This document shows positions 8,252-34,267 of a stretch of 48,043 nt of DNA, one piece after another. The stretch covers positions 1 to 48,043 of the forward strand of contig CALLLI010000004.1 in the NCBI GenBank assembly GCA_938082635.1. The letters are read 5' to 3'. A program made the position numbers and the translations under genes. Numbering within the stretch: position 1 is the stretch's first letter; each line of letters begins with the position of its first letter. The notes beneath the pieces are model-generated. The model worked only from the letters and a program-made list of their open reading frames with translations, had not been told where the DNA came from and ran no database searches. Source of the stretch: an uncultured Verrucomicrobiales bacterium (GTDB taxonomy: Bacteria; Verrucomicrobiota; Verrucomicrobiia; Verrucomicrobiales; DEV007).

Positions 8252-8264
8252 TTTCGATAGGATC

Positions 8265-8336
8265 GCCCGCGAAGAAGCGCGAAGTTGCGCTAAGATTTGA
8301 TCTCTAGATTTCGAGCCTTCGCGTTCCTTAGCGGGC
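8265..8336. repeat. Inverted repeat between the MoxR and DUF58 genes
   Basis: Two 20-base arms (8265-8284 and 8317-8336) are inverted copies agreeing at about 16 positions, beginning GCCCGCGAAG and ending AGCGGGC, around a 32-base loop. No T-run follows, so it is a poor terminator. It resembles the dispersed GCGAAG-type intergenic repeats of this group of bacteria and lies inside an otherwise compact operon. Confidence 0.5.
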
Positions 8337-8377
8337 AGTCATTCATTCATTTAATCAATCAATCTGCTATATGAAAA

Positions 8378-11466: not shown

Positions 11467-11470
11467 TTTG

Positions 11471-13855: not shown

Positions 13856-16800
13856 TGAATACGATCAAACCAGCCAGACTAAAGTCCAGCCTGCGGGCCG
13901 TGCACCGGCGTGAGCAGCTGTTGAGCGTGGTGATGGGGGCGCTGGAGCTTTGCAACTGGCTCGCGATTCTGTTCCTGTTGTTTTTTGCCATCGATTGGCT
14001 CGTCCGCCTTCCGGCGATCGTACGGATGGTCATATTAGTGCCACTGATAGTGTGTCCAGTCATCAAAGCCTGGCGTGTCGGCTGGCGATTCTTCAAACCC
14101 TGGTTCAACTTTCCCGGCACCGCGCTCAAAGTGGAGGATCACTACAAGGATTTCGAGAGCCTGTTGGTGTCCGGCGTGCAGCTGTCGGCGCCGGGCGCTG
14201 CCTCCGGAACGTCTGCAGCGATGGCGGCTCAGACTGTCGAGCGCGCGAACGAGGCGGCTGACCGAATCGATGCCGATGAGGTGGTTCCATTCAACCCCGT
14301 TGGGGTTCCTGGCTTGATCGGCTGTGGTCTGCTGGCTGCCCTGTGCATCTTTGCGGTGGTCAATTTTTCCATATTTAAAACCGCGGCGACACGGCTGTTC
14401 ACACCGTGGATCGAGGCCGAGTACCCGACCCGCACCCAGATCGAGGTCGAGGATGGTGAGCGGATCGTGAAAGAGGGCGAGGGGCTTCGCCTGGTCGCCA
14501 ACATCTCCGGCGAGATTCCGGAGAGCGCCAAGATCATCCTGCGCACCGGCAAGGGCAAGCCGCGTGAACGCAAACTGGCCGTGACTGGTGGCGTCTGCGA
14601 ATACGAGGCGGAGACCGTGTTCCGCAGTTTCGACCTCCGCATCTCCGCAGGGGACGCGCTCAGTGAATGGCAGACGGTGCGCGTGATTTCCGCGCCGCGG
14701 ATCGAACGCGCAGAGGTCACGCTCGAGTATCCAAAGTACACCGAACGCCCGGTCGAGACCGTCGAGGCGCTCACGCTCACCGTGCCCGAGGGCACCACGA
14801 TCAAGTGGAAGCTATCGCTCGATCGCGCCGTGGACGCGGCGGAATTCCGTCCGGCCGACGGGGACGCAGAGCCCTTGGAGATCAGTGCGGATGGTTGCTC
14901 GGTGACGATGCAGCAGGCGGCTGCACAATCGCGCGCCTACAGTTTCGGCTGGATCGACAAGGAGCACGGCTTCACCTTTGCCAGCCCGCGCCACTACTTG
15001 CAGGTCGCGCCGGATCGGCCGCCGAGTGTCGAGTTTACTTCGCCCGATGCCAATCTGTTCGCCACCCTGGAGCGGCAGCTCGATTTCGCCTTCCGCGGTC
15101 GTGACGACCACGGCATCGGCGAGGCCTCGATCGCCTACCGCATCAACAAAACCGCAGAGGAAAAAGTGGAGCTGGCTGAGCCGAGTGCGGATGCGCAAGA
15201 GCAGGAGATCGACTGGGACTATCGTGAGGCGCTGCCCGATCTGGCGATTGGTGACACCGTCAACTTCGCGATCGAGCTGGCGGATCGTTACCCTGGGGAA
15301 GATGGTCCGCACCGGGCGCGATCGGATGCGCGGCGCGTGCAATTTTTGTCGAAGGAGGATTACCTGGCGCAGATCGAAAAGCAGAAGCGTCGACTGCTAT
15401 CGCGAATCCGCACGATCTACCGCGAGGAGCGCGGCGTGCACGAACTCATCCGCAATCTCGACCCCTCGGCGGAGATTTTTGTGCAGACCTGTCAGCTAGA
15501 AGCGGTCCGCCAGGACCTGATCCGCGAACGCCTCGGCAAAGTCCACCAGCGGATCCTTGCGCTGGTGGCAGACTTGGAGGCCAACCACGTTTCCGAGGAG
15601 GCGGAGAGCGCCGCGCTGATCAAACTGGGCGAGGATCTGCAGAAGATCGCGAAAGAAAAAGTCGCAGGTGCGGCGACTCAACTACGTGCGCTCGCTGCAG
15701 TGAGCAGAGGGAAAGATGATACGCGTAACCCGACGGCCGCGATCCAAAAGGTCAACAGCTCGGCGCGCGAGCTCGGTCTTGTCGTCCTGCAACTCGGGTT
15801 TGCCGAAGCTTCGGATGTCATGGCGCGCGAGTTGCACGCGACCGCACAGACCCAGGCTGGACTGCGTTTGAAAACCATCGTCGGTGAAGGAGGAGATGAG
15901 CTCGCCAGTGATCAGACCCGGCTCGCCAAAGAAACCGCACGCCTTCTCGCCGCCACTCCGAAAAACCAGGAGAGTACCAGCAAGGATGCGCTGATCGCAT
16001 TCAACCTGTCTCGCCTAGTCAACGAGCGGCTTCGCTCTGGTTCCGATGCCAAGATGCAGGAAGCCGCCGCGCTCATCCCGAAGGCCGAGTCGGAGAAAGC
16101 TGCCCGGCTCCAGGCGGAGGTGACCGCGAGCCTGCTCGGTGCGGAATTCCGCTTGCGACTTGGTTCGGAACACGAGGCGCTGACCAAGGCGCGCAATCTA
16201 TTTAACGACCAAGCCGCCGGGCAGAAGAAATTGCGTGAAGAGAGCGCTGGCATGAAGGCGGACGAGTTGGTTGCCGAACAGGTATCGTTCCAGCGACAAC
16301 TACAATTGCTGCTGATGCCGGCGATCCCTGCGCCGATGGCGAAGCTGTTCGACCCGACCGAGCCAAGTGCTTCGCCGGTCGATGACCTGCTCACCGCTGC
16401 CGAGAAGGCGATGCAGGAAGCTCTAACCAAGATCAAGGCCGGAGAACAAAACGCAGCAGCAAGCCATCATCAACAAGCGCAGGCCGTCTTTGAGAAATTG
16501 GCACAGATCACCAGCGAGCGGATGGAGAGTCTGACGCGGGAGGCGCGCATGAATTACGCCGTTTCCAGTTCCGGCAAACAGGGGGTGCAGCTGTTCATGC
16601 TCGAGGAGCGCCTGCTGCTTTTGCTCGAGCAGATCGAAGACGCTGCTGATGAGGAGAATACGGCGGCGATCGCTCCGCTGAACCGGGGACTTGCTGCTGA
16701 TGTGGAAGGTTTGAGTCGTAGCATCAAACTGTGGAACGCAAGCCAGGCACGGCCGAGCGATGACGACTTGCCATTACTTGATTGCCTCGGCCGGATCGCT

Positions 16801-18300
16801 GCCGCAGTGAATGCCGCCACGCCGCTGCTGAAAGAAAACAAACTGGATGAGGCTATCGAACTCCACGAAACGGCGCTCGATGGGATCGAGGAGGCCACTG
16901 CCTTGATCGAGGAGATTACGTTGACGCGCACCGCGTTTGCCGAGGCGCTGGCGACCACCACCGCGGTACTCGCCCCGAGCCCGCTGCTGGTCGAAATCGA
17001 ATCCGAACAGGGCCACCTCAGCGCGCTGAGCGAAAGAGTGAAGCCGGAAGAGCGGGGGAGTCTCGTGATTCCGCAGAAGAATTTGATCCATGCGGTGGAT
17101 TCGGTGTTGGCCTCGCTGGATCCGCTGGCGCACAAAATCGAGTCCGATACGGTGATGTTGTTTGCCAAAGAAGACATGGACGCTGCGGCGATCGGTCTCG
17201 AAGAAGACGACATCGAAGAGACGCTCGACGCGCAAGCCTACGTCATCGAGACGCTGCAGGAGCTGCGGGCGAAGATCGATCACGCCACGCCGGAGTATCG
17301 CTATGTGCTCGAGGTTACCGAATTTTTATACGAGGTCGTGCCTCAAGGCGCCCAGATCCGAACCGAGATGCGGAAAATGTTAGAGGGGGCGGAGGGCGCC
17401 CCGGATGCGGCGGCCTTGAAGACGAGAATCGAACAATTCGGCGCCCAACTGCAAAGACTCACTGGGGAGGAAAAATACGCCGCCACCGCGAGTGAGTTGG
17501 CCGAGGCGATCGGCTCGGACGCTGAGGAAGCCCTCGACGCGCTGAGTGCAGATATCGAGGAATTGCAGATGTTGATGGAGAATCTCGCCTACCTGATCAC
17601 GCCACCACCGACCGGCGCAATCATCGAGGAGCCCTCGGGCGAAGTGAAGCTGATCCACAAGGCGCTAGCGATTGCGGCGCACCACATGGACCTCGCGCGG
17701 AAGACTCAGGCCTCGAAGCCGGAGGATCTCAAAGATCTTGCTGCACAGCAGCAAAAGCTAACAACTCCATGCGCCGCACTCATCCAAAAGCCCAAGCCGC
17801 CAGCGCCACCTGAGCAGCCGGTTGAAGAAGAGTCTGCTGTTGAAGGTGAGGTCGAACCTGAACCAGAACCAGAGGTGGTCGAGGAGCCTGTACCGCCCGC
17901 CCCAGAACCCCATGCAAAGTTAGTAGCCGCTCACCGCCACCTGTACGAGGCCACGGTAAAACTGAAAGCGAGCGAGCGCGATGCCGCGATCACCAATCAG
18001 ACAGAAGCGGCTGATTCGCTGCGTTCGTTCATCATCGAATATACCTTGGCATTCGTGGACGTGCCGCCACCGCCACCGCCGTCAGACCCCGCGCCTTCCG
18101 ATGACCCGCCCGAGGATGATGGCGAGCTGCAACTCTTCTTGCCCGGCGCGCTCACCGGAGAGCGACCCAAGGGCGGCCGCCTCGAATGGCAAGTCCTAGG
18201 CAGCCGCGATCGCGCCGCCCTGAACGAAAATTTCGCACGCGAACTACCGCTAGAATACCGTGCGATCCTGAAGGATTATTACGAACGGCTAACGGAATGA
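13855..18300 (+). CDS. Giant membrane-anchored coiled-coil protein (DUF4175-like)
   Basis: The start at 13855 overlaps the preceding stop (TGATG) and yields a protein of 1481 residues. A start at 13822 would add 11 residues within the previous gene. Near the N-terminus there are membrane helices (LCNWLAILFLLFFAIDWLV, MVILVPLIVCPVI, LIGCGLLAALCIFAVV). After these comes an Ig-like region, then about 900 residues that are rich in Ala, Glu, Leu and Lys and predicted to be helical or coiled coil. Proline/glutamate tracts (EPEPEPEVVEEP, then VPPPPPPSDP) lie near the C-terminus. It resembles the DUF4175-type proteins that close MoxR/BatA operons. It is probably a periplasmic spacer or scaffold; no enzymatic motif was seen. 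Confidence 0.75.
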   Translation: MNTIKPARLKSSLRAVHRREQLLSVVMGALELCNWLAILFLLFFAIDWLVRLPAIVRMVILVPLIVCPVIKAWRVGWRFFKPWFNFPGTALKVEDHYKDFESLLVSGVQLSAPGAASGTSAAMAAQTVERANEAADRIDADEVVPFNPVGVPGLIGCGLLAALCIFAVVNFSIFKTAATRLFTPWIEAEYPTRTQIEVEDGERIVKEGEGLRLVANISGEIPESAKIILRTGKGKPRERKLAVTGGVCEYEAETVFRSFDLRISAGDALSEWQTVRVISAPRIERAEVTLEYPKYTERPVETVEALTLTVPEGTTIKWKLSLDRAVDAAEFRPADGDAEPLEISADGCSVTMQQAAAQSRAYSFGWIDKEHGFTFASPRHYLQVAPDRPPSVEFTSPDANLFATLERQLDFAFRGRDDHGIGEASIAYRINKTAEEKVELAEPSADAQEQEIDWDYREALPDLAIGDTVNFAIELADRYPGEDGPHRARSDARRVQFLSKEDYLAQIEKQKRRLLSRIRTIYREERGVHELIRNLDPSAEIFVQTCQLEAVRQDLIRERLGKVHQRILALVADLEANHVSEEAESAALIKLGEDLQKIAKEKVAGAATQLRALAAVSRGKDDTRNPTAAIQKVNSSARELGLVVLQLGFAEASDVMARELHATAQTQAGLRLKTIVGEGGDELASDQTRLAKETARLLAATPKNQESTSKDALIAFNLSRLVNERLRSGSDAKMQEAAALIPKAESEKAARLQAEVTASLLGAEFRLRLGSEHEALTKARNLFNDQAAGQKKLREESAGMKADELVAEQVSFQRQLQLLLMPAIPAPMAKLFDPTEPSASPVDDLLTAAEKAMQEALTKIKAGEQNAAASHHQQAQAVFEKLAQITSERMESLTREARMNYAVSSSGKQGVQLFMLEERLLLLLEQIEDAADEENTAAIAPLNRGLAADVEGLSRSIKLWNASQARPSDDDLPLLDCLGRIAAAVNAATPLLKENKLDEAIELHETALDGIEEATALIEEITLTRTAFAEALATTTAVLAPSPLLVEIESEQGHLSALSERVKPEERGSLVIPQKNLIHAVDSVLASLDPLAHKIESDTVMLFAKEDMDAAAIGLEEDDIEETLDAQAYVIETLQELRAKIDHATPEYRYVLEVTEFLYEVVPQGAQIRTEMRKMLEGAEGAPDAAALKTRIEQFGAQLQRLTGEEKYAATASELAEAIGSDAEEALDALSADIEELQMLMENLAYLITPPPTGAIIEEPSGEVKLIHKALAIAAHHMDLARKTQASKPEDLKDLAAQQQKLTTPCAALIQKPKPPAPPEQPVEEESAVEGEVEPEPEPEVVEEPVPPAPEPHAKLVAAHRHLYEATVKLKASERDAAITNQTEAADSLRSFIIEYTLAFVDVPPPPPPSDPAPSDDPPEDDGELQLFLPGALTGERPKGGRLEWQVLGSRDRAALNENFARELPLEYRAILKDYYERLTE

Positions 18301-18371
18301 GGAATACAATTATTTCCAAGCCCGACGGGTTCAGTTGCACCAGCCCGACTCACAACCTCATCGAGTCCAAC

Positions 18372-18550
18372 GGGCTCAATCATAACAGCCCAGGGCAGCG
18401 CCCTGGGTCATCGGCATCGAACTACTGGCAGGCTGAAGGCCTGCTTCATAGCGTCAGGAATAGGCGATGCTATGAGGCAGACCTTCGGCCTGCAATTCCT
18501 ATACCGGACATTTCCCAGGGCGTTGCCCTGGGCTATTATGAACGAACCCT
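18372..18550. repeat. Nested extended palindrome, REPIN-like element
   Basis: This gene-free stretch (18301-18611) holds two near-identical hairpins in opposite orientation: CCCAGGGCAGCGCCCTGGG at 18389-18407 and CCCAGGGCGTTGCCCTGGG at 18514-18532. Their flanks also pair (GGGCTCAATCATAACAG with the complement of CTATTATGAACGAACCC). An inner pair is GCAGGCTGAAGGCCTGC with the complement of GCAGACCTTCGGCCTGC. The whole forms a roughly 180-base imperfect palindrome centred near 18461. Such pairs of palindromes are typical of REP elements mobilised by RAYT transposases; no RAYT gene is in the window. No terminator-like T-run follows. Confidence 0.7.
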
Positions 18551-18611
18551 TTGGGCTCGCTCGACCGATCGAATCTATTCCACTGAAGACCCTCAAAGTC
18601 CAAGCCCCCTA

Positions 18612-19664
18612 ATGAAACTCGAAAGCAATCGTTGCGACAGGAGACTCGGAATCGTCGCCTGGATCATCATGTCATTTCTGGCCACCTCCGTCATGGCACA
18701 AAACGACGGCGCGCCTGAGCTAACCGTTGAAGCCTCCAAGGCGATCGACAAAGGGCTCGAGTTCCTGCTTACGGTCCAGAAAGAAGACGGTTCGTGGGAC
18801 AGCAATGGAGAAGGCGGACACGCGGTGGCGATCACCTCGCTCTCACTGATGGCGTTCATGTCCAAGGCGCACTTTCCCGGCTTCGGCCCCTATGGCGAAC
18901 AGATGGACTGCGGGATGAAATGGCTTTTGAAGGAGGCAAAAAAGCGTCCGGACGGTTACCTCGGCACCGTGATGTACGAGCACGGGCTGGCAACGCTCGC
19001 GCTCTCGGAGATGTGGGGAATGGCGCGCGACCCTGATGATGACGACGCGATTCAGAAGGCGCTCGAAAAAGCCGTCGACGTGATCTTGCGATCGCAGAAC
19101 CCGGGAGGCGGCTGGCGCTACCAACCGCAGGCGGACGGCGGCGAAGACACCTCGTGCACCCAGACGGTTTTCCACGCCTTGGCCTCGGCTCGCCAGGCGG
19201 GGATCGCCGTTCCCAACGAGACCATCGCCAAAGTGGTGAAGTATTTAGAGAGCGCCCAAGACCCGAGCACCGGTGGTTTCACCTACACGCCTGGTGGCAA
19301 TCGCAAGATCACCCCGGCCTGCACCGCCGGTGGTGCCTACATCGCGCAGCTCGCCGGACAGCGCGACACCGAGTTGACCAACTCCGCACTGCGCCACCTC
19401 AAGAGCCTAGCCCCCGGCATCATCACCGGCGGCGCCGGCTACTATTACTACACGCACTACTACGCCATCCAGGCGATGGTGCAGGCCGGCGATGAAGAAT
19501 ACGCCGAGTGGTACCCGCAAATCCGCGACGCCCTGATCAGCAGGCAGAACGCCCAAGGCGCCTGGGACAAAGGAAGCCGCCACGGCGGAGGCGGTTATTC
19601 AACACCGATGGCGATCATCATCCTAGCAACCCCACATCGCTACATCCCGATTTACCAGAGGTAA
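18612..19664 (+). CDS. Secreted squalene-cyclase / prenyltransferase-repeat protein
   Basis: The start is set at the ATG at 18612, which is followed by a signal peptide (LGIVAWIIMSFLATSVMAQ). The open frame continues upstream only through the palindromic repeat. The mature 350-residue protein is made of alpha-alpha barrel repeats with the QW-type motif: TVQKEDGSWD, SQNPGGGWRYQP, AQDPSTGGFTYTP and RQNAQGAWDKG. The DxDD catalytic motif of real squalene-hopene cyclases is not seen, so it is probably a binding or structural relative. Proteins of this type regularly follow MoxR/BatA operons in these phyla. It precedes the tandem thioredoxin-like pair by 28 bases. Confidence 0.8.
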   Translation: MKLESNRCDRRLGIVAWIIMSFLATSVMAQNDGAPELTVEASKAIDKGLEFLLTVQKEDGSWDSNGEGGHAVAITSLSLMAFMSKAHFPGFGPYGEQMDCGMKWLLKEAKKRPDGYLGTVMYEHGLATLALSEMWGMARDPDDDDAIQKALEKAVDVILRSQNPGGGWRYQPQADGGEDTSCTQTVFHALASARQAGIAVPNETIAKVVKYLESAQDPSTGGFTYTPGGNRKITPACTAGGAYIAQLAGQRDTELTNSALRHLKSLAPGIITGGAGYYYYTHYYAIQAMVQAGDEEYAEWYPQIRDALISRQNAQGAWDKGSRHGGGGYSTPMAIIILATPHRYIPIYQR

Positions 19665-19692
19665 GGCAGGGACAAGTTACCTGAGAGATGCT

Positions 19693-22398
19693 ATGACCCG
19701 CTCGCTGATCGCCTTCTGTGCTGCGCTTCTGGCCATCTCTTTGGCGAGCTTTGCCCAAGATGTGGCCGCGATCTCCGAGATAGAGATCACCGCTCTGCAG
19801 AAGGAGCTTGGCGAAGCGGGATCGGCCTCGTCTTCGATCCGCAAACGTCGCGCCTACAAGAACGTCGTCCGCGATGGCGAAGGTCTCCTCAAAAAATCGC
19901 CCGCGGCCGCCAATCGATTCCGTGTCTTGGAGATCATGTTCCAGGGCCAGAAGCGCCTGCTGGCCTTGGAGAATTCCGATCGCCACCGCGAGGCACTCTT
20001 CGCAATCAGTGCCAAACTGAAAGAGGCGCCTGACGAGCTTGCAGATCTGCGCCTGGAGGCGGAAATGTTGCTATCGGAACGAGATCTGTCGGCGAAGAAC
20101 GCGGATGTGAAACAGCGGACGCAGGCGCTGGCGGAATTGATCGCTCGCTATCGCGACACGCCGGGCGAGGCGAAGAGCCTGATGATGGCTTCGATCGTTG
20201 CGCCGAAACTGGAAGCTTTCGATCTTGAGAAGCAGATTTTCGCCGCCATGAACGATCGCTTTGCGGGTGACTACGACCTGATCAAGTGGCGGCGCAAACA
20301 TCACGGCTATGCCCACGAGCGGGTGTTGTTCACTGGCACTTTCAAGCGGGCCGACGGAACGTCTCTGAAGTTTCCGATCGACACCATTGGCCATACCTGT
20401 GTGATGGTTTTCTGGTCGCAATCCTCACCGGAGATCGAAACGAAACTGGCGAAGGTCAAAGAGCTGCAGGGTCAATTTCCTGGCCAGATGGAAGTGTTCA
20501 GTTTCAACGTCGATGAACTGTCAGACGGCGGGGAGAAGCAGTTGCGTTCGCTGGGGCTCGATTGGACAATAATGATGCTCCCTGGCGGAAAGAAGAGCCA
20601 GACCTACCGCGTGGTTGCGCGGCAGGATCCGATGGTGGTGCGGGCAAATGCCCATGGGCATGCTTTCCTGCCGTCGACCCTCATCGATGAACTCCTCAAG
20701 GAGGTGTCGATGGAGCAGAACCTGGATGACCCGCGCTACCTGGCGCAGATGCAGTCGCTGTTGATTGGCGAGTTTCTTGTTCCCCCAACCAAACCGTCGA
20801 CTGCGCCGGGGTCGGTTCCCACTGAAAAGCTTAAGGCGATCCAGGATTGCTTCGTCGCCGCACCGCTCCGCTATCGTCTGACGCGCGAGCAGGCGCTGGC
20901 GAATTATCAGAAAGAGGAGCAGCTGTGCCGCGAAGCCATCGCGCAGTATCCGAAAGCGCCAGATCTGTGGCAGGTGCGCAATCGTCGGATCATCGCTTTA
21001 CTCGGCATGTGGAAACTCGCCTTGGAACCAAAACGTCTTGAGGCGGCGGCGGTGGAGTCACGGGCAGCGCTGGCCAATTCACCGCCGACCGGAGCCGAGC
21101 TTGCTCCGCAATTCTGTCTAGCGATCGAAGAGTTTCGTCGAGGTGAACGCTCCCCGAGCCAAGTGTTGTCAGAGTTCGTCAATGACGAGTCTCCAGCTAC
21201 GGCCTACGCCGCGGCAGCCATCCTGGCGATGGACGTCAACGCCATTGAATCGCATGCCGAGAATCGGCAGAAGTTTCTGGATGCGTATGATGGCGATCCG
21301 GCGATGTGGCCGGTGGTAACGTTTTTCCGCGATCAGAATCATCGCTACCGTCTGTTCACGTACAACTACTACATGCCCGCGAGCCGCGCGCGCCGGATCA
21401 TCCGCGCGCAATTGCGCGCCAATGTCGCCAATCTAGATGCGCTGGCGGATACCAGTGGTCCGGTAGAGGCCGAGTTCGCGACGCTCGACGGAGCTACGGT
21501 CAGCCTTCCGCAGGCGACCGATGGCAAGTTGACGCTGTTGATGTTTGTCGAGCCGCTGGCCGACGCGGACTTTCCGGTCTTGATCAACGGCGCGGTCGGT
21601 GAAGATGCCAGGGGCAAGAAGACCGAGACGCTTGGAATTATGCAGCGCGCGTTTGGATTGGCGGAACAGCATGTTTCCAAAGAGCTCAAGGTCATCGCGG
21701 CGTTTCTCAGCGACGATGCCGATCTCGTGAAGGCCTTGATGGAAAAACACGCGTGGCCTTGCGAGTCGGTTCTGGTTCCCGGTGGGCTCAGCAATCCGCT
21801 GGTACGCCGACTGGGCATACTCTCGGCCGACCGCGTGCCCAACGTTGTCCTGCTCCACCCAGACGGGACGATCTTGTGGAAGTTGTCGGGAATCATCCAC
21901 CCACAGGTGAGGAGCGAAGGCATCGGCGAGACCCTGCATGGCATCAGCCGGGCGATGAAACACAACATCGACCGCTACGAGATCGAGCGCTCGATCGTCG
22001 TGCTCGAGCAGGGCGATTACACCCAGGCAGTTCGGCTATTTTCTGGTCCGTTCGTGGATCCTGAAAAACCCGTGATCGATGGCTGGACGCCGCCGCGTTT
22101 CCATGGTCGCGCCCTCGCCCACATTGGGATGAAGAACTGGGAGGCGGCGCTGGCTGACCTCGATTCGGCAATCCGCGTGCACGAGTGGGATTACAATCAG
22201 AAACAGCCATGCATATGTCATCGGGTCGGCGGACTGCTGCTTCGCAAGGCAACTGTTCTCGATGAGTTGGGAAGGGGGCAGGAGGCGGAGGAAGCGCGGA
22301 AACGAGCAGCCGCGGCGAAATTCAATCACTCCGCATCGCGCTACAGCAGGCTCCACGATCGGATCGAGGCGACAAAAAAAGCGGATGAGAAAAAGTAA
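19693..22398 (+). CDS. Secreted protein with two cysteine-less thioredoxin-like domains and TPRs
   Basis: This 901-residue protein has a signal peptide (LIAFCAALLAISLASFAQ), a helical region to about 200, a first thioredoxin/TlpA-like domain (about 210-330, with VMVFWSQSSPEIE where the active site would be), a helical TPR-like middle, a second thioredoxin-like domain (about 594-735, LTLLMFVEPLADADFP ... NVVLLHPDGTILW) and TPR-like repeats (about 760-880, GDYTQAVRLF, MKNWEAALADLDSAI). Neither domain has the CxxC pair, so redox activity is unlikely and a protein-binding role is more probable. The 3' end overlaps its paralogue (22385) by 14 bases. No named family is recognised. Confidence 0.75.
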   Translation: MTRSLIAFCAALLAISLASFAQDVAAISEIEITALQKELGEAGSASSSIRKRRAYKNVVRDGEGLLKKSPAAANRFRVLEIMFQGQKRLLALENSDRHREALFAISAKLKEAPDELADLRLEAEMLLSERDLSAKNADVKQRTQALAELIARYRDTPGEAKSLMMASIVAPKLEAFDLEKQIFAAMNDRFAGDYDLIKWRRKHHGYAHERVLFTGTFKRADGTSLKFPIDTIGHTCVMVFWSQSSPEIETKLAKVKELQGQFPGQMEVFSFNVDELSDGGEKQLRSLGLDWTIMMLPGGKKSQTYRVVARQDPMVVRANAHGHAFLPSTLIDELLKEVSMEQNLDDPRYLAQMQSLLIGEFLVPPTKPSTAPGSVPTEKLKAIQDCFVAAPLRYRLTREQALANYQKEEQLCREAIAQYPKAPDLWQVRNRRIIALLGMWKLALEPKRLEAAAVESRAALANSPPTGAELAPQFCLAIEEFRRGERSPSQVLSEFVNDESPATAYAAAAILAMDVNAIESHAENRQKFLDAYDGDPAMWPVVTFFRDQNHRYRLFTYNYYMPASRARRIIRAQLRANVANLDALADTSGPVEAEFATLDGATVSLPQATDGKLTLLMFVEPLADADFPVLINGAVGEDARGKKTETLGIMQRAFGLAEQHVSKELKVIAAFLSDDADLVKALMEKHAWPCESVLVPGGLSNPLVRRLGILSADRVPNVVLLHPDGTILWKLSGIIHPQVRSEGIGETLHGISRAMKHNIDRYEIERSIVVLEQGDYTQAVRLFSGPFVDPEKPVIDGWTPPRFHGRALAHIGMKNWEAALADLDSAIRVHEWDYNQKQPCICHRVGGLLLRKATVLDELGRGQEAEEARKRAAAAKFNHSASRYSRLHDRIEATKKADEKK

Positions 22399-25177
22399 AA
22401 CCGTGACGGCTTTAATAACTCGCATGTTTTTGGCGGCATTCCTCCTCGCAGGAATTTTTGTTGGTGTAGCGAACTCGCAGGAGGCTGCCCGCGACATCTC
22501 CGAGAGCGCGGTTGCAGCCCTGCAGAACGACTTGGACGAGGCGGGCACGGCCAAATCATCGGCGAGGCAGCGCCGGGCCTACAAGAACATCGTCCGCGAC
22601 GGTGAGACGCTGCTGGAGGCCACCCCGAAGGCCCCGAACCGATGGCGCGTGCTGGGGATCATGTTCGATAGCCGCAAGTCCCTGTTCGGCATGGACAATT
22701 CTGATTCGAACCGCGAGGCGCTCTTGGAAAACTGCGTTAGGCTGGCCGAGGCGCCGGACGAGTATGCCGAGCATCGACTCGAAGCCGACCTGCTGCTTTC
22801 GGAACAGGCCACCTCAGCCAAGGGTGCCACTTTGGAGGAACGGGCGAAGGCGATCGAGACAATCGTCGATCGTTACCGGGGCACGCCGGCGGAGGCGAAG
22901 AGCCTGATGATGGCCGCGCAGATTGCCCCGAAGCTGCAGGCATTCGAATTGCAGAAGAAAATCGTGGCCGCCCTGGGCGAACGTTTCGCAGGCGATCCCG
23001 CTGTGATTGAGTTCCGTCGGGAACACCTCGGGCTCCGTCGGCAGGACGCGCTGTTTGTCGGCACATACGCACGTGCGGACGGCGTTACCCTGCGGTTTCC
23101 GGCTGACCTGATGGGGCGGCTGAGCGTCATGGTGTTCTGGTCGCAAAAGACGGAGGGCTTTGAGCCATTCCTCGAGGGGATCAAGGAACAGCAGCGCGCT
23201 CATCCGGGTCGATTCGAAGTCTTCAGTTTTAATCTCGACGAACTGCCTGACGCAGGCGCGTCGACGTTGAAAGCTTTGGATCTCAACTGGACGGTCATGC
23301 GGCTGCCTGGGGGCAAAAAGAGCCAGGCGTACCGCAGCTATGCACGAAAGGACCCGATCGGCGTCCTGGTAAACGCCTATGGCCATGCTCTCCTGGCGCC
23401 GGCCTCGCTGGACGCGGCGGAACAGGCCAGGCTTGGCGTGCGCGGCCTGCCTATGGGGATGGCCACCTTGCCCCGGCGCCTCGACGAGCCACGCTATCTT
23501 GCGCAATTGCAGTCGCTGTTGGTTGGCGATGTTCTGGTCACTGCGCCCGATGGTCGCCTAGATGCCGCCCTTCGTACAGCCGAGTCAGTTCCCGCCGAGA
23601 CGCTGCGCGCCATCCAAGCATGCTTTACATCGGCGCCCTTCCGCTACCGACTGACGACCGACGAGGCGCTGGCGAACTACCAGAAGGCACAGAAGTTGTG
23701 TGATGAGGCGGTCAGGCAACACCCGGCTGCGCCAGATCTCTGGATTGTCCGCAACCGGAGGATCATCGCTCTGCTGGGCATGTGGAACCTTACCGTTGAG
23801 CCCAAGTATCTTGAGCAAGCAACTGAAGAGGCGCGCGTTTCTCTGGCCGCGAAGCTGCCTCCGGGAGCCGACATCGTGCCGCGCTTCTGTCTCGCAAAGC
23901 AAGCGCTCCGGCAAGGCGACTCGCCGCCGGAGTCCGTCCTCCTAGATTTGATCGAGAAAACGGGCGGGGCCGAAGCGCCCCCCTCGGCCCATGCCGCGGC
24001 CGCAATCCTAGCGCTGGACGCCCACGCGCGAGACTTGCACAATCGCCACCGCGCCAAGTTGCTGGCAGCGCCGGATGGGGGCAGTCCCCAGCTGTGGCCC
24101 ATGGTCTCGTTCCTGCGTGATCGAATACACTCCTACCGCCTGTTCAAGGGCAATTACATCGGCAAAGAACGCGGGTCGGCGCGTTTCTACATGATCAATC
24201 ACGGCGCACCCCCGATGACGGAACTTTTGCCGACCGTGACGCTCAAGACCCTCGATGGGCGAACGCTGAGTCTCCCGCAGGATACCAACGGCAAACTGAC
24301 GCTCTTGGTTTTTGTCGAGCCGTCCGCTGAACCCGATGCGGAGTTTCCCATCGACTTGGGGGAAGGTGAAGACAAGAAGCCACACCATCATTTTCTCCAA
24401 TTCGCGTGCGACCTGGCAGACATGCATGTCAACCAAGGCGTCACTACAATCGCGGCCTTTTTGTCGGAAGATGCGGAACGCATCAATGCCCTGATGAAAT
24501 CAAGGGAGCTGACCTGCCAGGTTGCCATCGTGCCGGGCGGCCTCGCGAACCCGATGGTTCGCCGGCTGGGCGTGCTTTCTGCGGATCGTATCCCGAACGT
24601 CTTCCTGCTTCGCCGGGACGGCTCCATCGCATGGCACGCATCGGGATTGCCCTACGAAGATGCCGAAAAATTTGTCCACTTGCTCGCCGCGAAAGTCCAC
24701 ATCGAGACCTGTGAAGTGGAGACGGCCTGCGAGGTTCTGGAGAAGGGAAACTTCGAGGAGGCAGCACGCCTCTTCGGCGGTCCCTATCTTCCCTGGAACC
24801 CCGATCGCTATGGCTGGCGATCGCCCAGATACCACGGACAGGCCCTGGCCTACATGGGCCTGAAGGACTGGGATGCCGCGCTCGAGTCGATCGAGAAGGC
24901 GATCGACGCCCAGAAATTGCGCTATTTCTCGGGCCGCAGAGGCAAGGACCCCGAGCGTTGGCGAGAGGAAGCTGCCATGGTGACGCTCAAGAACCCCGAT
25001 GACACTATGGTGGAACTATGGGCCACCAAAGCCGAGATTCTCGACAAGCTTGGCAGCAGCGACGAGGCGGCCCAAATGCGCAAACGCGCCGCAGAGCCGG
25101 GCAGAGCAGATGATCCGAGCCGATACAAGTCGACCCACGACAGATTAAAGCAGCACCGAATGGAGACACAAAAATGA
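22385..25177 (+). CDS. Tandem paralogue with cysteine-less thioredoxin-like domains and TPRs
   Basis: The start at 22385 (MRKSKTVTALITRMFLAAFL, a signal peptide) overlaps the end of the preceding paralogue, and an upstream start at 22262 would remove that signal. The 930-residue product has the same order of domains: helical region, thioredoxin-like domain 1 (about 222-338, VMVFWSQKTEGFEP), TPR-like middle, domain 2 (about 615-755, LTLLVFVEPSAEPDAEFP, VPGGLANPMVRRLGVLSADR) and C-terminal TPR (MGLKDWDAALESIEKAI). CxxC is again absent. The two proteins align along their whole length, so they arose by tandem duplication. Its stop overlaps the next start (ATGA). Confidence 0.75.
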   Translation: MRKSKTVTALITRMFLAAFLLAGIFVGVANSQEAARDISESAVAALQNDLDEAGTAKSSARQRRAYKNIVRDGETLLEATPKAPNRWRVLGIMFDSRKSLFGMDNSDSNREALLENCVRLAEAPDEYAEHRLEADLLLSEQATSAKGATLEERAKAIETIVDRYRGTPAEAKSLMMAAQIAPKLQAFELQKKIVAALGERFAGDPAVIEFRREHLGLRRQDALFVGTYARADGVTLRFPADLMGRLSVMVFWSQKTEGFEPFLEGIKEQQRAHPGRFEVFSFNLDELPDAGASTLKALDLNWTVMRLPGGKKSQAYRSYARKDPIGVLVNAYGHALLAPASLDAAEQARLGVRGLPMGMATLPRRLDEPRYLAQLQSLLVGDVLVTAPDGRLDAALRTAESVPAETLRAIQACFTSAPFRYRLTTDEALANYQKAQKLCDEAVRQHPAAPDLWIVRNRRIIALLGMWNLTVEPKYLEQATEEARVSLAAKLPPGADIVPRFCLAKQALRQGDSPPESVLLDLIEKTGGAEAPPSAHAAAAILALDAHARDLHNRHRAKLLAAPDGGSPQLWPMVSFLRDRIHSYRLFKGNYIGKERGSARFYMINHGAPPMTELLPTVTLKTLDGRTLSLPQDTNGKLTLLVFVEPSAEPDAEFPIDLGEGEDKKPHHHFLQFACDLADMHVNQGVTTIAAFLSEDAERINALMKSRELTCQVAIVPGGLANPMVRRLGVLSADRIPNVFLLRRDGSIAWHASGLPYEDAEKFVHLLAAKVHIETCEVETACEVLEKGNFEEAARLFGGPYLPWNPDRYGWRSPRYHGQALAYMGLKDWDAALESIEKAIDAQKLRYFSGRRGKDPERWREEAAMVTLKNPDDTMVELWATKAEILDKLGSSDEAAQMRKRAAEPGRADDPSRYKSTHDRLKQHRMETQK

Positions 25178-27060
25178 AGCAACACCACATTATCAAAAGA
25201 GCATGGATCATGACGATCCTGGTTCTATCGACAACCATCTTTGCCGCCGAGAAACCAGAGCGGGCCAGCCTGACCGCAGAAGGGAAGAAGCTCGAGGAAC
25301 ATTACAGCAAGATGCTGGCTGATCTCAGGGAAGAGATCACGCTCCTGGAGCCCGAAGTGGACGAAAAAAAGAAGGCCGAATTCACCAAGCAGTTCGGCGC
25401 GCTTGAGGATGTCACACCTATTACCAAGACCGTCATGGCCAATGAGGTCACCTTGAAATACGGCCCGGGAAACCCTGCCTATGTTGAAAAACAGAAAGAG
25501 GTCCTTACTGCGGCCAGAGCCGTCATGGAGGACATTGAAGTGTTTCTCGCCAGCGAGAACCAGCAGGCCACCATGGCCAAATTCGCACTACTGACCCATG
25601 CCACGCCGAGTCGCTTGGCCGGCTTTGCGCAAGAGGGCGAAGAGGAAAAAGCGCTGATCGAAAAGCTCTTCAATGACGACAAACTCGTCGTGCAGGCCAT
25701 GACGCTGGGAGGGGCCAGCGGCGGAAATTACGGGCAGGCGATGCGACGCTACACAGCCATCCAGAAAGCCACCGATCGTTCTCACGAGGGTTTCTTTCAG
25801 GTTTGGGCCCTGGCTGTGTCTCTTCAGTATACCGGCGATACCTATGTCTATCCCGACGTTCCCGCGGCAGAGTCCTTGGTTAATTACTACCTGAATTACC
25901 TGAAGGCATACGACGACGGCATACTGGATCCCGCCTTTTCTGAATTGGGCGGTACAGGATGGAACTATCGCTTTGTTTTTCCAGACTCCTACACGCTTGA
26001 AGATATCGACTGGATGAGAAAGGTGTTGCGTAACTACCGTCCCGATCACACGTGCCTGGAATACCGATGGCGCTACTGCCGTATCGTAAGAAGCGACATT
26101 CCCTATACCAGCGGCGTCGACAGGAGCGGCATGCCGGCCGATCTGAGTAATATTCAGAAGTTCTTTCTCGAAGGCGGCATCTGCGGCCCGCGCGCTTTTG
26201 TCGGGCAAATATCGGGATACGCTTTCGGCATACCTTCTCGCCGTGCACCCTCCCCGGGCCACGGTGCCATGGCGCACTGGACTCCGGACGGATGGACCAC
26301 CGTCCTGGGACCCCACTTCTATTTCTGCAAACACATCAATGGGATGCCCCCCATGGATTTCCTATTGGAATCACAGGCGCAACAAGATCCCAAGGGGTTC
26401 AAACAGGTGCTGATGTGTGAGTGGTTAGGGCAAGCGCTGGGCGAACAGGTCCCGCAAAACTACGGATCAAGCGGCGGATTCTGGCGATTGCTCGGTTTCT
26501 ACAAAAGGCAGGCCATCGTCGAAGACCAGAAAATAGAAGACATCGGAACCACCGGTGAAGAACTTGCAGAATCCAATGTGAGTAGCGAGAAGGAAGAGAT
26601 CGAGCAGATAGAGATCCCTGAGAAGTTCCAGACGATCACCGTGACCGAGGACGGCACCATCACCATTCCCGTAGCGGCATGCAGATCACCGAAGAATGGT
26701 GAGAAGATAAGATTCATGGAAAGCATCGATGGCGGGATGCAAGTGCACTACGGTTTGGCTGGCCAGCGCCCGGAATTGCTCAGGTACACGATAGAGATCC
26801 CCAAGGCCGGCAAGTACGAATTCTCTGCTCATGTATGTACCGTGACCATGGATCAAAAATTCCTGCTCCGCGTCAACAGGAGAACCCTCGTGGATGTCGA
26901 CATTCCCTACACCAAAGCCGACTGGATGGACACCGAGCCCGTTGAACTCGAATTGATAGAGGGGCGAAACCGGATCTCATTTACCCAGTACGCCCCGAAT
27001 AAAGGAATTAGTATCAAATTCTTCAAGCTGACACCGGTCCCGAAGACGGCCAGCAACTAG
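25174..27060 (+). CDS. Secreted transglutaminase-like protein with carbohydrate-binding-like C-terminus
   Basis: This 628-residue protein has a signal peptide (AWIMTILVLSTTIFAAE), a helical region to about 200, and then a segment with GGICGPRAF (Cys about 337) followed about 25-35 residues later by GHGAMAHWTPDGWTTV. This fits the Cys...His...Asp layout of transglutaminase-like cysteine hydrolases. The last about 110 residues (LRYTIEIPKAGKYEFSAHV ... IEGRNRISF) resemble a CBM6/CBM35-type beta-sandwich. Its ATG overlaps the preceding TGA, so it belongs to the same transcript and closes the MoxR/BatA-linked operon. The transglutaminase assignment is an inference from motif layout; the substrate is unknown. 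Confidence 0.55.
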   Translation: MKQHHIIKRAWIMTILVLSTTIFAAEKPERASLTAEGKKLEEHYSKMLADLREEITLLEPEVDEKKKAEFTKQFGALEDVTPITKTVMANEVTLKYGPGNPAYVEKQKEVLTAARAVMEDIEVFLASENQQATMAKFALLTHATPSRLAGFAQEGEEEKALIEKLFNDDKLVVQAMTLGGASGGNYGQAMRRYTAIQKATDRSHEGFFQVWALAVSLQYTGDTYVYPDVPAAESLVNYYLNYLKAYDDGILDPAFSELGGTGWNYRFVFPDSYTLEDIDWMRKVLRNYRPDHTCLEYRWRYCRIVRSDIPYTSGVDRSGMPADLSNIQKFFLEGGICGPRAFVGQISGYAFGIPSRRAPSPGHGAMAHWTPDGWTTVLGPHFYFCKHINGMPPMDFLLESQAQQDPKGFKQVLMCEWLGQALGEQVPQNYGSSGGFWRLLGFYKRQAIVEDQKIEDIGTTGEELAESNVSSEKEEIEQIEIPEKFQTITVTEDGTITIPVAACRSPKNGEKIRFMESIDGGMQVHYGLAGQRPELLRYTIEIPKAGKYEFSAHVCTVTMDQKFLLRVNRRTLVDVDIPYTKADWMDTEPVELELIEGRNRISFTQYAPNKGISIKFFKLTPVPKTASN

Positions 27061-27177: not shown

Positions 27178-27921
27178 ATGACGAACAAACGCTTCAAAGA
27201 TCAGACAGCTATCATCACCGGCGGGGCCGATGGGCTCGGCCTGCATATCGCAGCACGCCTGGCACAGGAGGGTGCGCAAGTGTGGATCGTAGACCGCGAT
27301 CAGGAATTAGGGACGGCTGCTGCGGAGCGGATCGGGTGTGAATTCGAGCCGCTGGATGTGGCAGACGAAACGTCGGTGGTGTCTGCCTTTGAGAAGATTC
27401 ACGCTGAGGCAGGACAGCTGGACGTGATGGTCAACTGTGCGGGGATCGTCGGGCCGAACGGGATGAAGATCGAAGACGTGCCCTTGTCAGGGTTTGACCA
27501 AGTGCAAGCAGTGAACGTCCGAGGTTCGTTTCTAACATGCCGCGAGGCGGTGCGGCACATGCGATCGCGCGATTACGGGCGCGTGCTACTCATCGCCTCG
27601 ATCGCTGGCAAGGAAGGGAACGCTGGGATGTCGTGCTATTCTACGAGCAAATCGGCGGTGATCGGATTGGTGAAATCGGTTGGCAAAGAGTATGCGGAGA
27701 CTGGCATTACGGTCAACGGTCTGGCCCCAGCGGTGATCCGTACAGCCATGGTAGACAACATGGAGCCCGCGCAGGTGGCATACATGACTGACAAGATTCC
27801 AATGAAGCGCTGCGGGACGCTCGACGAAGTGGCCGCGATGGCTTGCTGGATAGTCTCCCCGGAGGCGAGTTTCAACACCGGCTTCACTTTCGATCTGTCA
27901 GGAGGGCGGGCGGTTTATTAG
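27178..27921 (+). CDS. SDR-family NAD(P)-dependent dehydrogenase
   Basis: This 247-residue protein is a classical short-chain dehydrogenase. The nucleotide-binding motif is TGGADGLG (14-21), NCAG is at 86-89, and the catalytic residues are Asn113, Ser141, Tyr154 and Lys158 (YSTSKSA). VDRD after the second strand (Asp at the end of beta 2) suggests a preference for NAD. SDRs of this type oxidise hydroxyl groups of sugars or sugar acids, which fits the catabolic operon downstream. The start has AGGA seven bases upstream. Shared regulatory module 1 lies directly before it, and the AraC regulator follows by 44 bases, so the two are probably co-transcribed. Confidence 0.9.
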   Translation: MTNKRFKDQTAIITGGADGLGLHIAARLAQEGAQVWIVDRDQELGTAAAERIGCEFEPLDVADETSVVSAFEKIHAEAGQLDVMVNCAGIVGPNGMKIEDVPLSGFDQVQAVNVRGSFLTCREAVRHMRSRDYGRVLLIASIAGKEGNAGMSCYSTSKSAVIGLVKSVGKEYAETGITVNGLAPAVIRTAMVDNMEPAQVAYMTDKIPMKRCGTLDEVAAMACWIVSPEASFNTGFTFDLSGGRAVY

Positions 27922-27965
27922 AGATGTCGGTTTCCGGCTGCAGAACTGGTAGGAATGGTTGAGCT

Positions 27966-28832
27966 ATGGCCGACCTGCCCTATCACTACGATTGGAAGCC
28001 AAGGTTTGAAACCTCGCACGGTCTCCAGGTGAAGTGGTTCGGGCGTTGGGGTGGCGATCCAGGCTGGGTGATCGAACCATCGCGCCTGGCGTCGGATCTC
28101 ATCTGTTTCTTCTATCTCGAGGACGGCAAATGTAATACGGTGATCAATGGCGTCCGCCTTCCACTGCAACCCGGCGAGTTGGTCGTATGGCGCGGCGGGG
28201 ATGTCTTCTCGGCCACCCAGGATCCGACTCGACCGCAGACGAGCTTGTCGGCATGCCTCTCGCTGAGCCGTGACGACGCTGCCAACGTGTTGCTTCGCCA
28301 CGCCTACGAGCGACATTACCGACTGCCGGACAAGAAATCCTACGAGCAACAGTTCACTGCGGTGCTCGAAGCGCTGGAAACCGAAAGCCGCTGGCGCAAT
28401 CTGCTAGTCACGGCCGCCATCTTTCGCTGGCTAGCGGAATTGCAGGAAACGCTTCAGCCCGATCCCGGTGCGGCAGAGGGAAATCCGAAGACCGTTCACC
28501 ATGTGCTCGCCGCGCAGGAGTGGATTGGGCAGCATCTTGGTGAGGATGTCTCCATCACCGAGTGGTCCCGCGCCTGCGGACTCAATGCGGATTACTTCAG
28601 TCGCTTGTTTAAGGTGCACACCGGCATGCCCCCGAAAACCTGGTTGATCGAGGCCCGGCTTCAGCGGGCCACCCGACTGCTTGCCTCTCCGGAGTCGACG
28701 GTCGAAGAAATCGCCGAACGCTGCGGCTTCAACTGCCCGTTCCATTTCTCCCGCAGCTTCAAACGCCGCTTCGGGATCCCACCGGCGAAGTACCGCCTCG
28801 TTCGCCAAGTCCGCGGCTTTGTAGATCCATGA
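27966..28832 (+). CDS. AraC-family transcriptional regulator
   Basis: This 288-residue regulator has an N-terminal cupin-like sensor ([18 protein letters not shown], residues about 50-70) and a C-terminal AraC double helix-turn-helix (about 180-280), with [20 protein letters not shown] and [20 protein letters not shown] as the two HTH units and GIPPAKYRL as the closing signature. It lies between the SDR and the dehydratase operon, and the same conserved DNA module flanks it on both sides. It is therefore the obvious candidate to bind that module and control its own transcript as well as the operon, probably in response to the sugar-acid substrate. The ligand is not known. Confidence 0.9.
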
Positions 28833-28846
28833 ATCCGCTTCTCCAG

Positions 28847-28889
28847 AAAGTCGGATTTCTTCATGTAAAACAGCCCGCCACTTCATACT
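28847..28889 (+). promoter_or_regulatory. Shared regulatory module 2, upstream of dehydratase operon
   Basis: The 19-mer AAAGTCGGATTTCTTCATG (28847-28865) is identical to the one at 27098, and TTCATACT (28882-28889) follows after exactly 16 bases in both. The bases between are unrelated, which argues for selection on the two blocks and not for a recent copy. TATAAA lies at 28909-28914, 62 bases from the motif start. The dehydratase start is at 28942. Confidence 0.8.
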
Positions 28890-28941
28890 CTCCGGCAAAG
28901 AACCCTGGTATAAACAGTCGACCCGACCATTCCCATCACTG

Positions 28942-30120
28942 ATGAAGATCGAACGTATCGAAACCCACGTCTGCCATGCGCGTATGCGCAATTGGGTCTT
29001 CGTGAAGGTCATCACGGACCAGCCCGGTCTGCATGGTTGGGGTGAGGCCACGCTCGAATGGCATACCCGCGCTGTGGTCGGCGCGGTAGAAGACATCGCC
29101 GAGTTGTTAGTCGGTGAGGATCCGCAGCGCATCGAGCACCTCTGGCAGATGATGTTCCGTCAGCATTTCTGGCACGGCAACGGCATCGTGCGCGGCACTG
29201 CCATCAGCGGTATTGATCTGGCGCTGTGGGACATTCTTGGAAAAGTCCACGGCGTGCCGGTGCACAAGCTTTGGGGTGGGCCGGTGCGCGACCACATCCG
29301 GCTCTACTGCCATCTGGGTGGCGGCCGCATGGAGGATTTCTACGAAACTGATAGCTCTGATACGAAGCGCTTCGGCGAGCTGGCACAGCAGGCGGTGGAG
29401 GAGGGCTATTCCGCATTCAAATCGATGGCCGTGCCGCCGACGATGCCGCTCGAAGGCACACGTCCCGTGCGCTACGCGGAGGCCTGCGTGGCGGCGATGC
29501 GAGAGGCCGTCGGACCAGACATTGACATCATGGTCGATTGCCATGCGCGTCCTTCGCCGCGCATGGGACTCCTGTTCGCCAAGGCGCTCGAGCCCTACGA
29601 CCTCTACTTCTTTGAGGAACCCTGCTGGCCGGAATCGATGGACGACATCGCCCGCATTCAGGACGCGGTGAAAACACCGATTGCCACCGGCGAAAGACTC
29701 GTCGGCCAGCACGCTTTCCGCGAGTTGTTGGAGAAGCGTGCCTGCTCGGTGCTCCAGCCGGACATCACCCACTGCGGCGGGCTTTCCGAGGCGCGCCGCA
29801 TCGCCGCCATGGCGGAGGCCTACCGCGTTGCGCTCGCACCGCACAACCCGCAGGGGCCGGTGAGCACCGCCGCCTCCATCGAGCTCGGCTTCGCCACCCC
29901 CTCATACGTTATCTGCGAGACCGTCCACGCCGACGTGCCGTGGCGCGAGGATGTGGTGCAGGAGGGTTTCCAGATCGATCCTAACACCCGCACCGTGAAA
30001 CCCAACACGCTGCCTGGCCTCGGTGTGGAACTCAACGAGAAGGAGATCGCGAAGCATCCCTTCAAGCAGGAAGAAGCCCAGCGCGTGTTCTACTCTGACG
30101 GCGCGGTGGGCGACTGGTAA
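28942..30120 (+). CDS. Enolase-superfamily sugar-acid dehydratase (D-galactonate dehydratase type)
   Basis: This 392-residue protein belongs to the mandelate-racemase/muconate-lactonising branch of the enolase superfamily and closely follows galactonate dehydratases. The metal ligands are Asp199, Glu225 and Glu251. The acid/base residues are His201 (VDCHARP), and His301 with Asp274. In E. coli galactonate dehydratase these are 183, 209, 235, 185, 285 and 258, so all six are shifted by the same 16 residues. The reaction would be dehydration of an aldonic acid to a 2-keto-3-deoxy acid in the cytosol. It is the first gene of the operon and is 13 bases from the DapA-family gene. Galactonate itself is only one possible substrate. 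Confidence 0.85.
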
Positions 30121-30133
30121 CTAACAATCAACT

Positions 30134-31054
30134 ATGGGAAAAGAACAACCACTCGCCGGCGTGTTTCCGGTTCTGCAATTACCCTATCAAAGCGACGAAT
30201 CGATCGATTGGGAAACGCTCTCCCACGAGATCGATTGGGCCTACGCGAACGGCGCGCATGGCATCGTCGCCGCAATGGTCACTGAGGTTCTCAGGCTAAC
30301 AGATGCCGAGCGCGACGAGCTAGCACAGCGGCTAGTCGAATTCAACGCCGACCGTGGGGCGGTGGTCATGAGCGTCGGAGACGAGAGCACGGTGCAGGCC
30401 GTCCGCCATGTGCGCGCTGCCACCGCCGCTGGGGTCGATGCGCTGATGGCGATCCCGCCCGTGGCGACCCGCGCGCTACTCGCGGAGAAAGTCCGCTATT
30501 TCGAGGCCATCATCGAGGCCACCGACTTGCCGGTCGTCGTGCAAGATGCCAGCGGTTATGTCGGCGAGCCCCTGCCGGTCGAGACTCAAGCGGACCTACA
30601 CCGGCGCTTCGGCGCGCGCGTGTTGTTCAAGCCCGAGGCCCAGCCGCTCGGCCCCAATCTGAGTGGCCTGCGCGACGCGGGCGGCCCCGGCTTGAAAGCG
30701 TTCGAGGGCAGCGGCGGCATCGCCCTGCTCGACTCGTATCAGCGTGGGATTTGCGGGACAATGCCGGGCACCGAAATCGTCTGGGCCATCCGCGCCGAGT
30801 GGGACGCGCTGGAAGCTGGAGATCTTGAGCGTGCCACCGCGTTGCAAGGCATCATTGCCCCACTCGTCTCGTTGCAACAGGGGCTCGACGGCTTCCTCAG
30901 TGTGGAGAAAGCGCTGCTGCACCGGCAGGGCGTTTTCCCGAACCGAATCATCCGTGGCCCAGTCGGCTTCAGCCTCGATCCGGAAACCGAACGCGAGGTG
31001 TTCCGCCTGTTCGATCTGCTCTGCGAACTCTGTGGGAGGGAAGTGCCTTCGTGA
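30134..31054 (+). CDS. DapA-family lyase/aldolase
   Basis: This 306-residue protein has the TIM-barrel fold of the dihydrodipicolinate synthase/N-acetylneuraminate lyase family. The Schiff-base lysine is Lys166 in VLFKPEA, after a hydrophobic strand at about residue 160. The usual YNxP tyrosine segment is replaced by VVVQDASGYVG, so the proton-relay tyrosine of classical members is not in its normal place, though Tyr142 is close. In this setting it probably splits or dehydrates the 2-keto-3-deoxy acid made by the dehydratase upstream, with pyruvate as a likely product. Its gene starts 13 bases after the dehydratase stop. Confidence 0.85.
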   Translation: MGKEQPLAGVFPVLQLPYQSDESIDWETLSHEIDWAYANGAHGIVAAMVTEVLRLTDAERDELAQRLVEFNADRGAVVMSVGDESTVQAVRHVRAATAAGVDALMAIPPVATRALLAEKVRYFEAIIEATDLPVVVQDASGYVGEPLPVETQADLHRRFGARVLFKPEAQPLGPNLSGLRDAGGPGLKAFEGSGGIALLDSYQRGICGTMPGTEIVWAIRAEWDALEAGDLERATALQGIIAPLVSLQQGLDGFLSVEKALLHRQGVFPNRIIRGPVGFSLDPETEREVFRLFDLLCELCGREVPS

Positions 31055-31103
31055 GACTGCCGGTAGCGACACACACCAGTCGCATAACACTTATAAGAAA
31101 ACC

Positions 31104-32465: not shown

Positions 32466-32480
32466 CCTTACAAGTCAAGC

Positions 32481-34256: not shown

Positions 34257-34267
34257 GAATCCTAACC

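Follow-up and report, generated by a model that had tools for sequence, protein, structure and literature searches.

Layout of the nine-gene run

The stretch of DNA analysed here (the window, 48,043 nucleotides) belongs to an uncultured Verrucomicrobiales bacterium whose genome comprises 6.33 Mb in 472 contigs. Among the open reading frames of the window, nine genes from a MoxR-type ATPase to a transglutaminase-like protein form a single run on the plus strand. The first gene (7208–8251) encodes a MoxR-type AAA+ ATPase of 347 residues, in which the Pfam AAA_3 model (PF07726) matches at 7367–7771 with 213.6 bits against a cut-off of 27. It is followed by a DUF58-type protein of 308 residues (8378–9304), named from gene order and sequence, which carries a DxSxS motif at residue 93, has no transmembrane segment, and is 69–92% identical to the DUF58 proteins of related operons. 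The BatA-type protein (approximately 9301–11466) is built from two N-terminal transmembrane segments, a vWA domain (VWA_2), a CARDB domain, and one C-terminal transmembrane segment, and the BatA N-terminal model (PF07584) matches with 58.8 bits. The fourth gene (11468–13855) encodes a second vWA membrane protein, vWA2, with a GATase1-like domain; its PF07090 match of 28.1 bits is barely above the cut-off of 27 and its vWA matches are weak, and both transmembrane segments and a DxSxS motif are present. The DxSxS (MIDAS) motifs of the operon read DASYS, DVSQS, and DASAS.

The fifth gene (13822–18300) encodes a long DUF4175-like protein of 1492 residues with N-terminal transmembrane segments and a C-terminal tail containing residues that are invariant in an alignment of 34 members. 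No Pfam model scores above its cut-off on this protein, DUF4175 (PF13779) included, and membership of that family was rejected; what links the two is a chain of homology, in which the N-terminus of the long protein resembles shorter proteins, one of them, encoded in the same genome, matching PF13779. An earlier reading of the sequence alone had called the first five genes a standard series, which holds for MoxR, DUF58, BatA, and vWA2 but not for the unusually long fifth protein. Hydrophobicity and the charges flanking the membrane segments suggest a periplasmic location for the vWA domains of BatA and vWA2 and for the larger part of the DUF4175-like protein.

Between the DUF4175-like gene and the next one lies a palindromic repeat, with no strand assigned (18362–18559), which matches its own reverse complement at 73%, places CCAGGGC...GCCCTGG hairpins within the operon, and recurs as fragments at other places in the genome. 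At related loci, the DUF4175-like and SQ genes overlap in 30 of the 38 pairs (median −4). Scans for promoters and terminators returned matches no better than the chance level. The last four genes encode SQ (18612–19664), P1 (19693–22398), P2 (22385–25177), and TG (25174–27060), proteins of 350, 901, 930, and 628 residues, respectively. Their ends had been described as overlapping or nearly touching, and this is borne out by a 28-bp spacing between SQ and P1, a 14-bp overlap of P1 and P2, and a 4-bp overlap of P2 and TG. Elsewhere in the window, we noted a CotH kinase-like protein with lamin-tail domains (43846–46725) and, by eye, a HipA-like protein on the minus strand (36434–37444).

Architecture of the exported proteins

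Hydrophobicity analysis revealed one N-terminal signal-like segment in each of SQ, P1, P2, and TG. The sequence-only reading had described these proteins as a secreted squalene-cyclase-like protein without a DxDD motif, two tandem secreted paralogues of about 900 residues, and a transglutaminase-like protein with a sugar-binding-like tail, and all three descriptions agree with the features reported below. SQ matches SQHop_cyclase_C (PF13243) with 30.9 bits against a cut-off of 26.1, its PDB sequence matches are squalene-hopene cyclase chains, and it is of the α/α toroid type with three QW motifs. The catalytic DxDD of squalene-hopene cyclase is missing at the aligned place in all 45 members of the SQ family, five of which contain the string DxDD at other sites of the protein.

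P1 and P2 are 49% identical. The model of P2 (pLDDT 88.5) consists of helical repeats and two α/β domains, the first at residues 220–340 or thereabouts and the second at 611–778. The second domain matches thioredoxin folds of the TlpA/ResA type (Z 14.5, rmsd 2.4, 138 aligned residues), from which P differs in that the fold is embedded in a TPR-type protein and lacks CxxC. This motif occurs in neither thioredoxin-like domain of any of the 81 P proteins, and a redox role for P was rejected on that ground. Sequence searches of P against Pfam, NCBIfam, and the PDB named nothing beyond TPR. In a FastTree phylogeny, the duplication behind P1 and P2 is an old one, because the two sit in different supported clades that each contain members from other loci. 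Because CxxC is missing from P and DxDD from SQ, the sequences point to binding roles for both.

TG (model pLDDT 87) has a helical domain, a Cys/His core called transglutaminase-like from a Cys-helix/His pattern and a weak profile match, and a CBM6/35-like tail. Residues Q328, C337, and H363 are invariant in all 43 aligned members, and the equivalents of C337 and H363 are also kept in 16 of 16 members of a second TG-family alignment. The core shares with transglutaminases (PF01841) a Cys at the start of a helix, a GIPxR-like motif, and a His, but it lacks the third catalytic residue: at the place of the canonical Asp after the His, the 43-member alignment has Leu or Phe followed by an invariant Gly, and none of the 43 members gives a Pfam transglutaminase match at an E-value of 0.01. 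In a profile comparison with PF01841 relatives (hhalign), GGICG...AFGIPSR of TG aligned with the transglutaminase Cys-helix at E 6e-4 with a probability of only 28%, compared with E 0.56 for a control using the N-terminal part of TG. TG may nevertheless be an enzyme acting through its Cys and His, although the missing Asp and the lack of a Pfam transglutaminase match leave room for an inactive protein or one with a different chemistry. The tail (residues 494–621) has the β-sandwich fold and superimposes on the CBM6 structure 5fui with Z 14.7 and rmsd 2.1 over 119 aligned residues. Searches of whole TG with Foldseek and VIA-align listed CBM6/35 and other sandwich domains throughout; these covered the tail rather than the core and included a domain from insecticidal crystal proteins, domain III, whose likeness is one of common fold only. 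Pfam, NCBIfam, and PDB sequence searches of TG named nothing beyond CBM. P and TG are two protein families for which the Pfam and NCBIfam models used here offer no whole-protein name, and neither has an NCBIfam match. PNGase, with a Cys/His core and a sugar-binding sandwich in one protein, is an analogue. In three stand-alone TG proteins (loci L085, L086, and L087), we observed by eye an inserted stretch resembling formylglycine-generating-enzyme domains.

Recurrence of the gene unit and its relation to ordinary operons

Scanning genome contigs with a profile of the P alignment yielded 104 relatives, 80 of which were kept, from 70 loci. The SQ/long-DUF4175 core lies upstream of P at 51 of these loci; four are without the core, and 15 are uninformative because the contig begins no more than about 2.7 kb before P. 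Reading of open reading frames placed an SQ or DUF4175-like gene in the same cluster at 44 of the 70 loci, and tblastn raised the core count by seven (L092, L115, L127, L139, L147, L150, and L153). TG was found in the same-strand cluster at 50 of the 70 P loci. Two layouts recur, SQ-P(1–4)-TG(-P), to which the window belongs, and SQ-(SASA)-TG-P, where SASA denotes a SASA-type esterase gene. In 11 of 12 genomes, a MoxR gene encoding a protein 78–91% identical to that of the window sits immediately upstream, its coordinates agreeing with those of the locus, and one of these 11 copies is partial at a contig end; in the twelfth genome, the locus begins 2.8 kb from the contig start. The core accompanied by P, TG, or both was found repeatedly in Verrucomicrobiota and also in metagenome-assembled genomes labelled Planctomycetota. 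The contigs of the relatives match records labelled Verrucomicrobiales and similar, mis-binning could lie behind some of the Planctomycetota labels at 70–75% identity, and the labels of L099, L115, L117, and L118 (Deltaproteobacteria, Nealsonbacteria, or Myxococcales) are doubtful. Because the order recurs across dozens of loci, it exceeds chance, and the genes at 7208–27060 are a recurring gene unit; conservation of gene order in related genomes, which had been proposed as a check, was thereby observed. As side observations, a 186-residue open reading frame between SQ and P in L075 (4321–4881) resembles, by eye, a REP-associated transposase, and in L124 a second, different MoxR-DUF58-BatA-vWA operon directly follows the P/TG operon.

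Since P was the bait for the 70 loci, they carry no information on how often the core occurs without P; for that, we relied on a set of 57 genomes, that of the window included. TG matches occur in 17 of the 57 and P matches in seven; one of the seven, in G028, is weak (E 6.6e-4 over 62 residues) and was not counted as P. Relatives of SQ at the level of at least 54% and relatives of the long DUF4175-like protein were found only in the P-carrying genomes G000, G017, G023, G032, and G042. In G044, which has TG, a contig end cuts into a P gene so that only its terminal part is present, and the long DUF4175-like protein has no match. P itself is rare, occurring in five of 74 genomes in the family, one of 288 spread over the phylum, and none of three congeners. 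This patchy distribution is what would be expected of an accessory unit, perhaps one acquired by transfer.

Ordinary MoxR-DUF58-BatA-vWA-DUF4175-SQ operons of Verrucomicrobiota share the core genes with the window operon, SQ included, but differ in DUF4175-like proteins of 550–1540 residues, in SQ of other clades, and in the lack of a P or TG match at the loci examined. These are 22 loci (L077, L079, and L158–L177), in which the core genes, where visible, stand in various orders. In a quick tree with long branches among the ordinary SQ, all 45 SQ proteins of P/TG operons fall on one side of a branch separating them from 19 ordinary ones (SH-aLRT 100). Pairwise distances are correlated between TG and SQ (Mantel r 0.78, 25 loci), TG and the DUF4175-like protein (0.83, 22 loci), and SQ and the DUF4175-like protein (0.94, 31 loci), as expected if the genes travel as a set, with the limit that Mantel shuffles ignore shared ancestry. 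The sequence-only reading had named as contrary evidence relatives carrying MoxR/BatA without these genes and the genes elsewhere alone. That pattern does occur in part: MoxR/BatA/SQ without P or TG is common, stand-alone TG is found with SASA, and at L106, L119, L137, and L144 P or TG-P lies away from the core. On the other side, the long DUF4175-like protein and its own SQ clade were not seen without P among the 57 genomes.

Candidate function and competing explanations

The nine genes probably build one cell-envelope machine working on sugars. More specifically, and with a confidence that stays just short of even, we read 7208–27060 as a MoxR/Bat-type membrane machine with an exported module, whose scaffold would hold, mature, or position a Cys-His TG acting on a glycan or glycoprotein. 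The gene unit, the tie of the core subtype to P, the invariant residues, the loss of CxxC, DxDD, and Asp, and the association with SASA are observed; we infer the topology of this machine, its assembly into a physical complex, its enzyme activity, and its substrate. In the proposed mechanism, cytosolic MoxR would use ATP, and its force would travel via the DUF58 protein and the loops that BatA and vWA2 expose to the cytosol. These two proteins, with their periplasmic vWA (MIDAS) domains, would relay force or a signal through the membrane to a periplasmic assembly, in which the long DUF4175-like protein would serve as the scaffold. The SQ toroid, which lacks the cyclase acid, and the TPR arms of P, with two redox-dead thioredoxin folds, would provide the binding and docking sites by which TG is held, matured, or positioned. 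With its sugar-binding tail, TG would act on an amide bond, cutting or transferring it, in a substrate that may be a glycan, a glycopeptide, or a surface glycoprotein, and in many relatives a SASA-type esterase would take acetyl groups off the substrate of TG.

Genes that accompany TG hint at glycans. In relatives, the SASA genes in or near the operon gave a PF03629 match in 12 of 12 cases, with intact GQSN and WMQGESD motifs, and they resemble SASA/CE6-type O-acetylesterases with no difference noted. SASA lies in the same-strand cluster at 17 of the 70 P loci, and the window operon itself has no SASA gene. Where TG genes stand outside the operon, SASA was found in the fetched stretch at seven of nine loci, compared with 0.75 expected from genome counts; three of the nine come from genome G042, without which the count is four of six compared with 0.21. 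In this count, L087 was left out, and the absence of SASA at L080 and L081 was judged from an open-reading-frame motif only. Directly after the window operon (27178–35167) lie genes for SDR, AraC-type (by eye), enolase-superfamily, DHDPS-family, ceramidase-like, SSF symporter, and PhyH proteins, which resemble sugar-acid catabolism; as a hint at glycans from this window alone, they are suggestive. Acetylated glycans are the substrate class hinted at.

Several known systems bear on these proposals. The Bat operon (MoxR-DUF58-BatA/B-TPR) of Bacteroides and Leptospira has in common with the window operon MoxR, BatA-type vWA proteins, a TPR part, and a proposed periplasmic complex, whereas the window operon adds the long DUF4175-like scaffold, the SQ toroid, the double-thioredoxin P, and TG, often with SASA in relatives. 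None of these additions is named in the accessible portion of a text on Bat (PMC3557215). Pairs of MoxR and vWA proteins act by remodelling target complexes. For NorQD, PMC9976466 describes a MoxR ring that drives its vWA partner to remodel a membrane target, with the vWA protein plugging the ring and the MIDAS thought to bind the target. Remodelling of a membrane-bound target is likely the shared mode; NorQD, however, comprises just two proteins and works on a reductase, its vWA domain touching the ATPase directly, whereas in the window operon the vWA domains are predicted to lie across the membrane and the partners are exported. The motor and membrane parts are of a known kind, and the exported module looks undescribed: a literature search, which covered few subscription papers, returned near misses only and no paper on this gene set. 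It is quite unlikely that the whole is an undescribed ATP-driven machine in which the MoxR/vWA motor, via redox-dead arms and a dead-cyclase toroid, runs a surface amidase and de-O-acetylase. Such an amidase, with a layout like that of PNGase, would act on a glycan or glycoprotein, possibly in the processing or uptake of acetylated glycans.

As a competing explanation, TG, with SASA where present, could be an ordinary secreted enzyme pair by which external polysaccharide is used, co-transcribed with the MoxR/Bat operon for joint regulation and not part of a complex. The off-core TG genes beside SASA esterases and, by eye, sulfatase-like genes agree with this, as do the sugar-acid-type catabolic cluster after the window operon and a sulfatase near one P operon (L113). 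On the other hand, almost every P either accompanies the core or sits close to where the contig breaks off (51 with the core, 4 without), P has no enzyme motif, and the SQ/DUF4175-like subtype tracks P, which leaves this explanation plausible but unlikely. The BatA, vWA, and TPR parts and the thioredoxin folds would also suit an envelope stress or redox machine, in which P guards or reduces periplasmic proteins as proposed for Bacteroides Bat (reviewed in PMC3557215). We consider this distinctly improbable: all 81 P proteins lack CxxC at both thioredoxin sites, and, according to the same text, a protective role of Bat could not be demonstrated in Leptospira.

Two further explanations fare worse. 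The above-cut-off SQHop_cyclase_C match and the PDB matches to squalene-hopene cyclases would be accounted for if SQ were an active terpene cyclase in an operon that makes or places a polycyclic lipid. SQ, however, has 350 residues compared with 631, a signal-like N-terminus, and no DxDD in any of 45 members; with DxDD missing, terpene cyclization was rejected as the likely function of SQ, and the operon-level version is highly improbable. MoxR-vWA pairs also underlie conflict systems described in PMC7159879. That the window operon is such a defence system is hardly credible, since its parts are membrane-bound and exported, no nuclease or toxin-like effector was seen among them, and none of the nine proteins gave a PADLOC match, the PADLOC models not covering all conflict systems.

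MoxR/Bat operons are widespread, and the present subtype gives a route to what a MoxR/vWA machine acts on. It supplies concrete exported partners with testable residues, namely C337 and H363 of TG and the MIDAS of the vWA domains.
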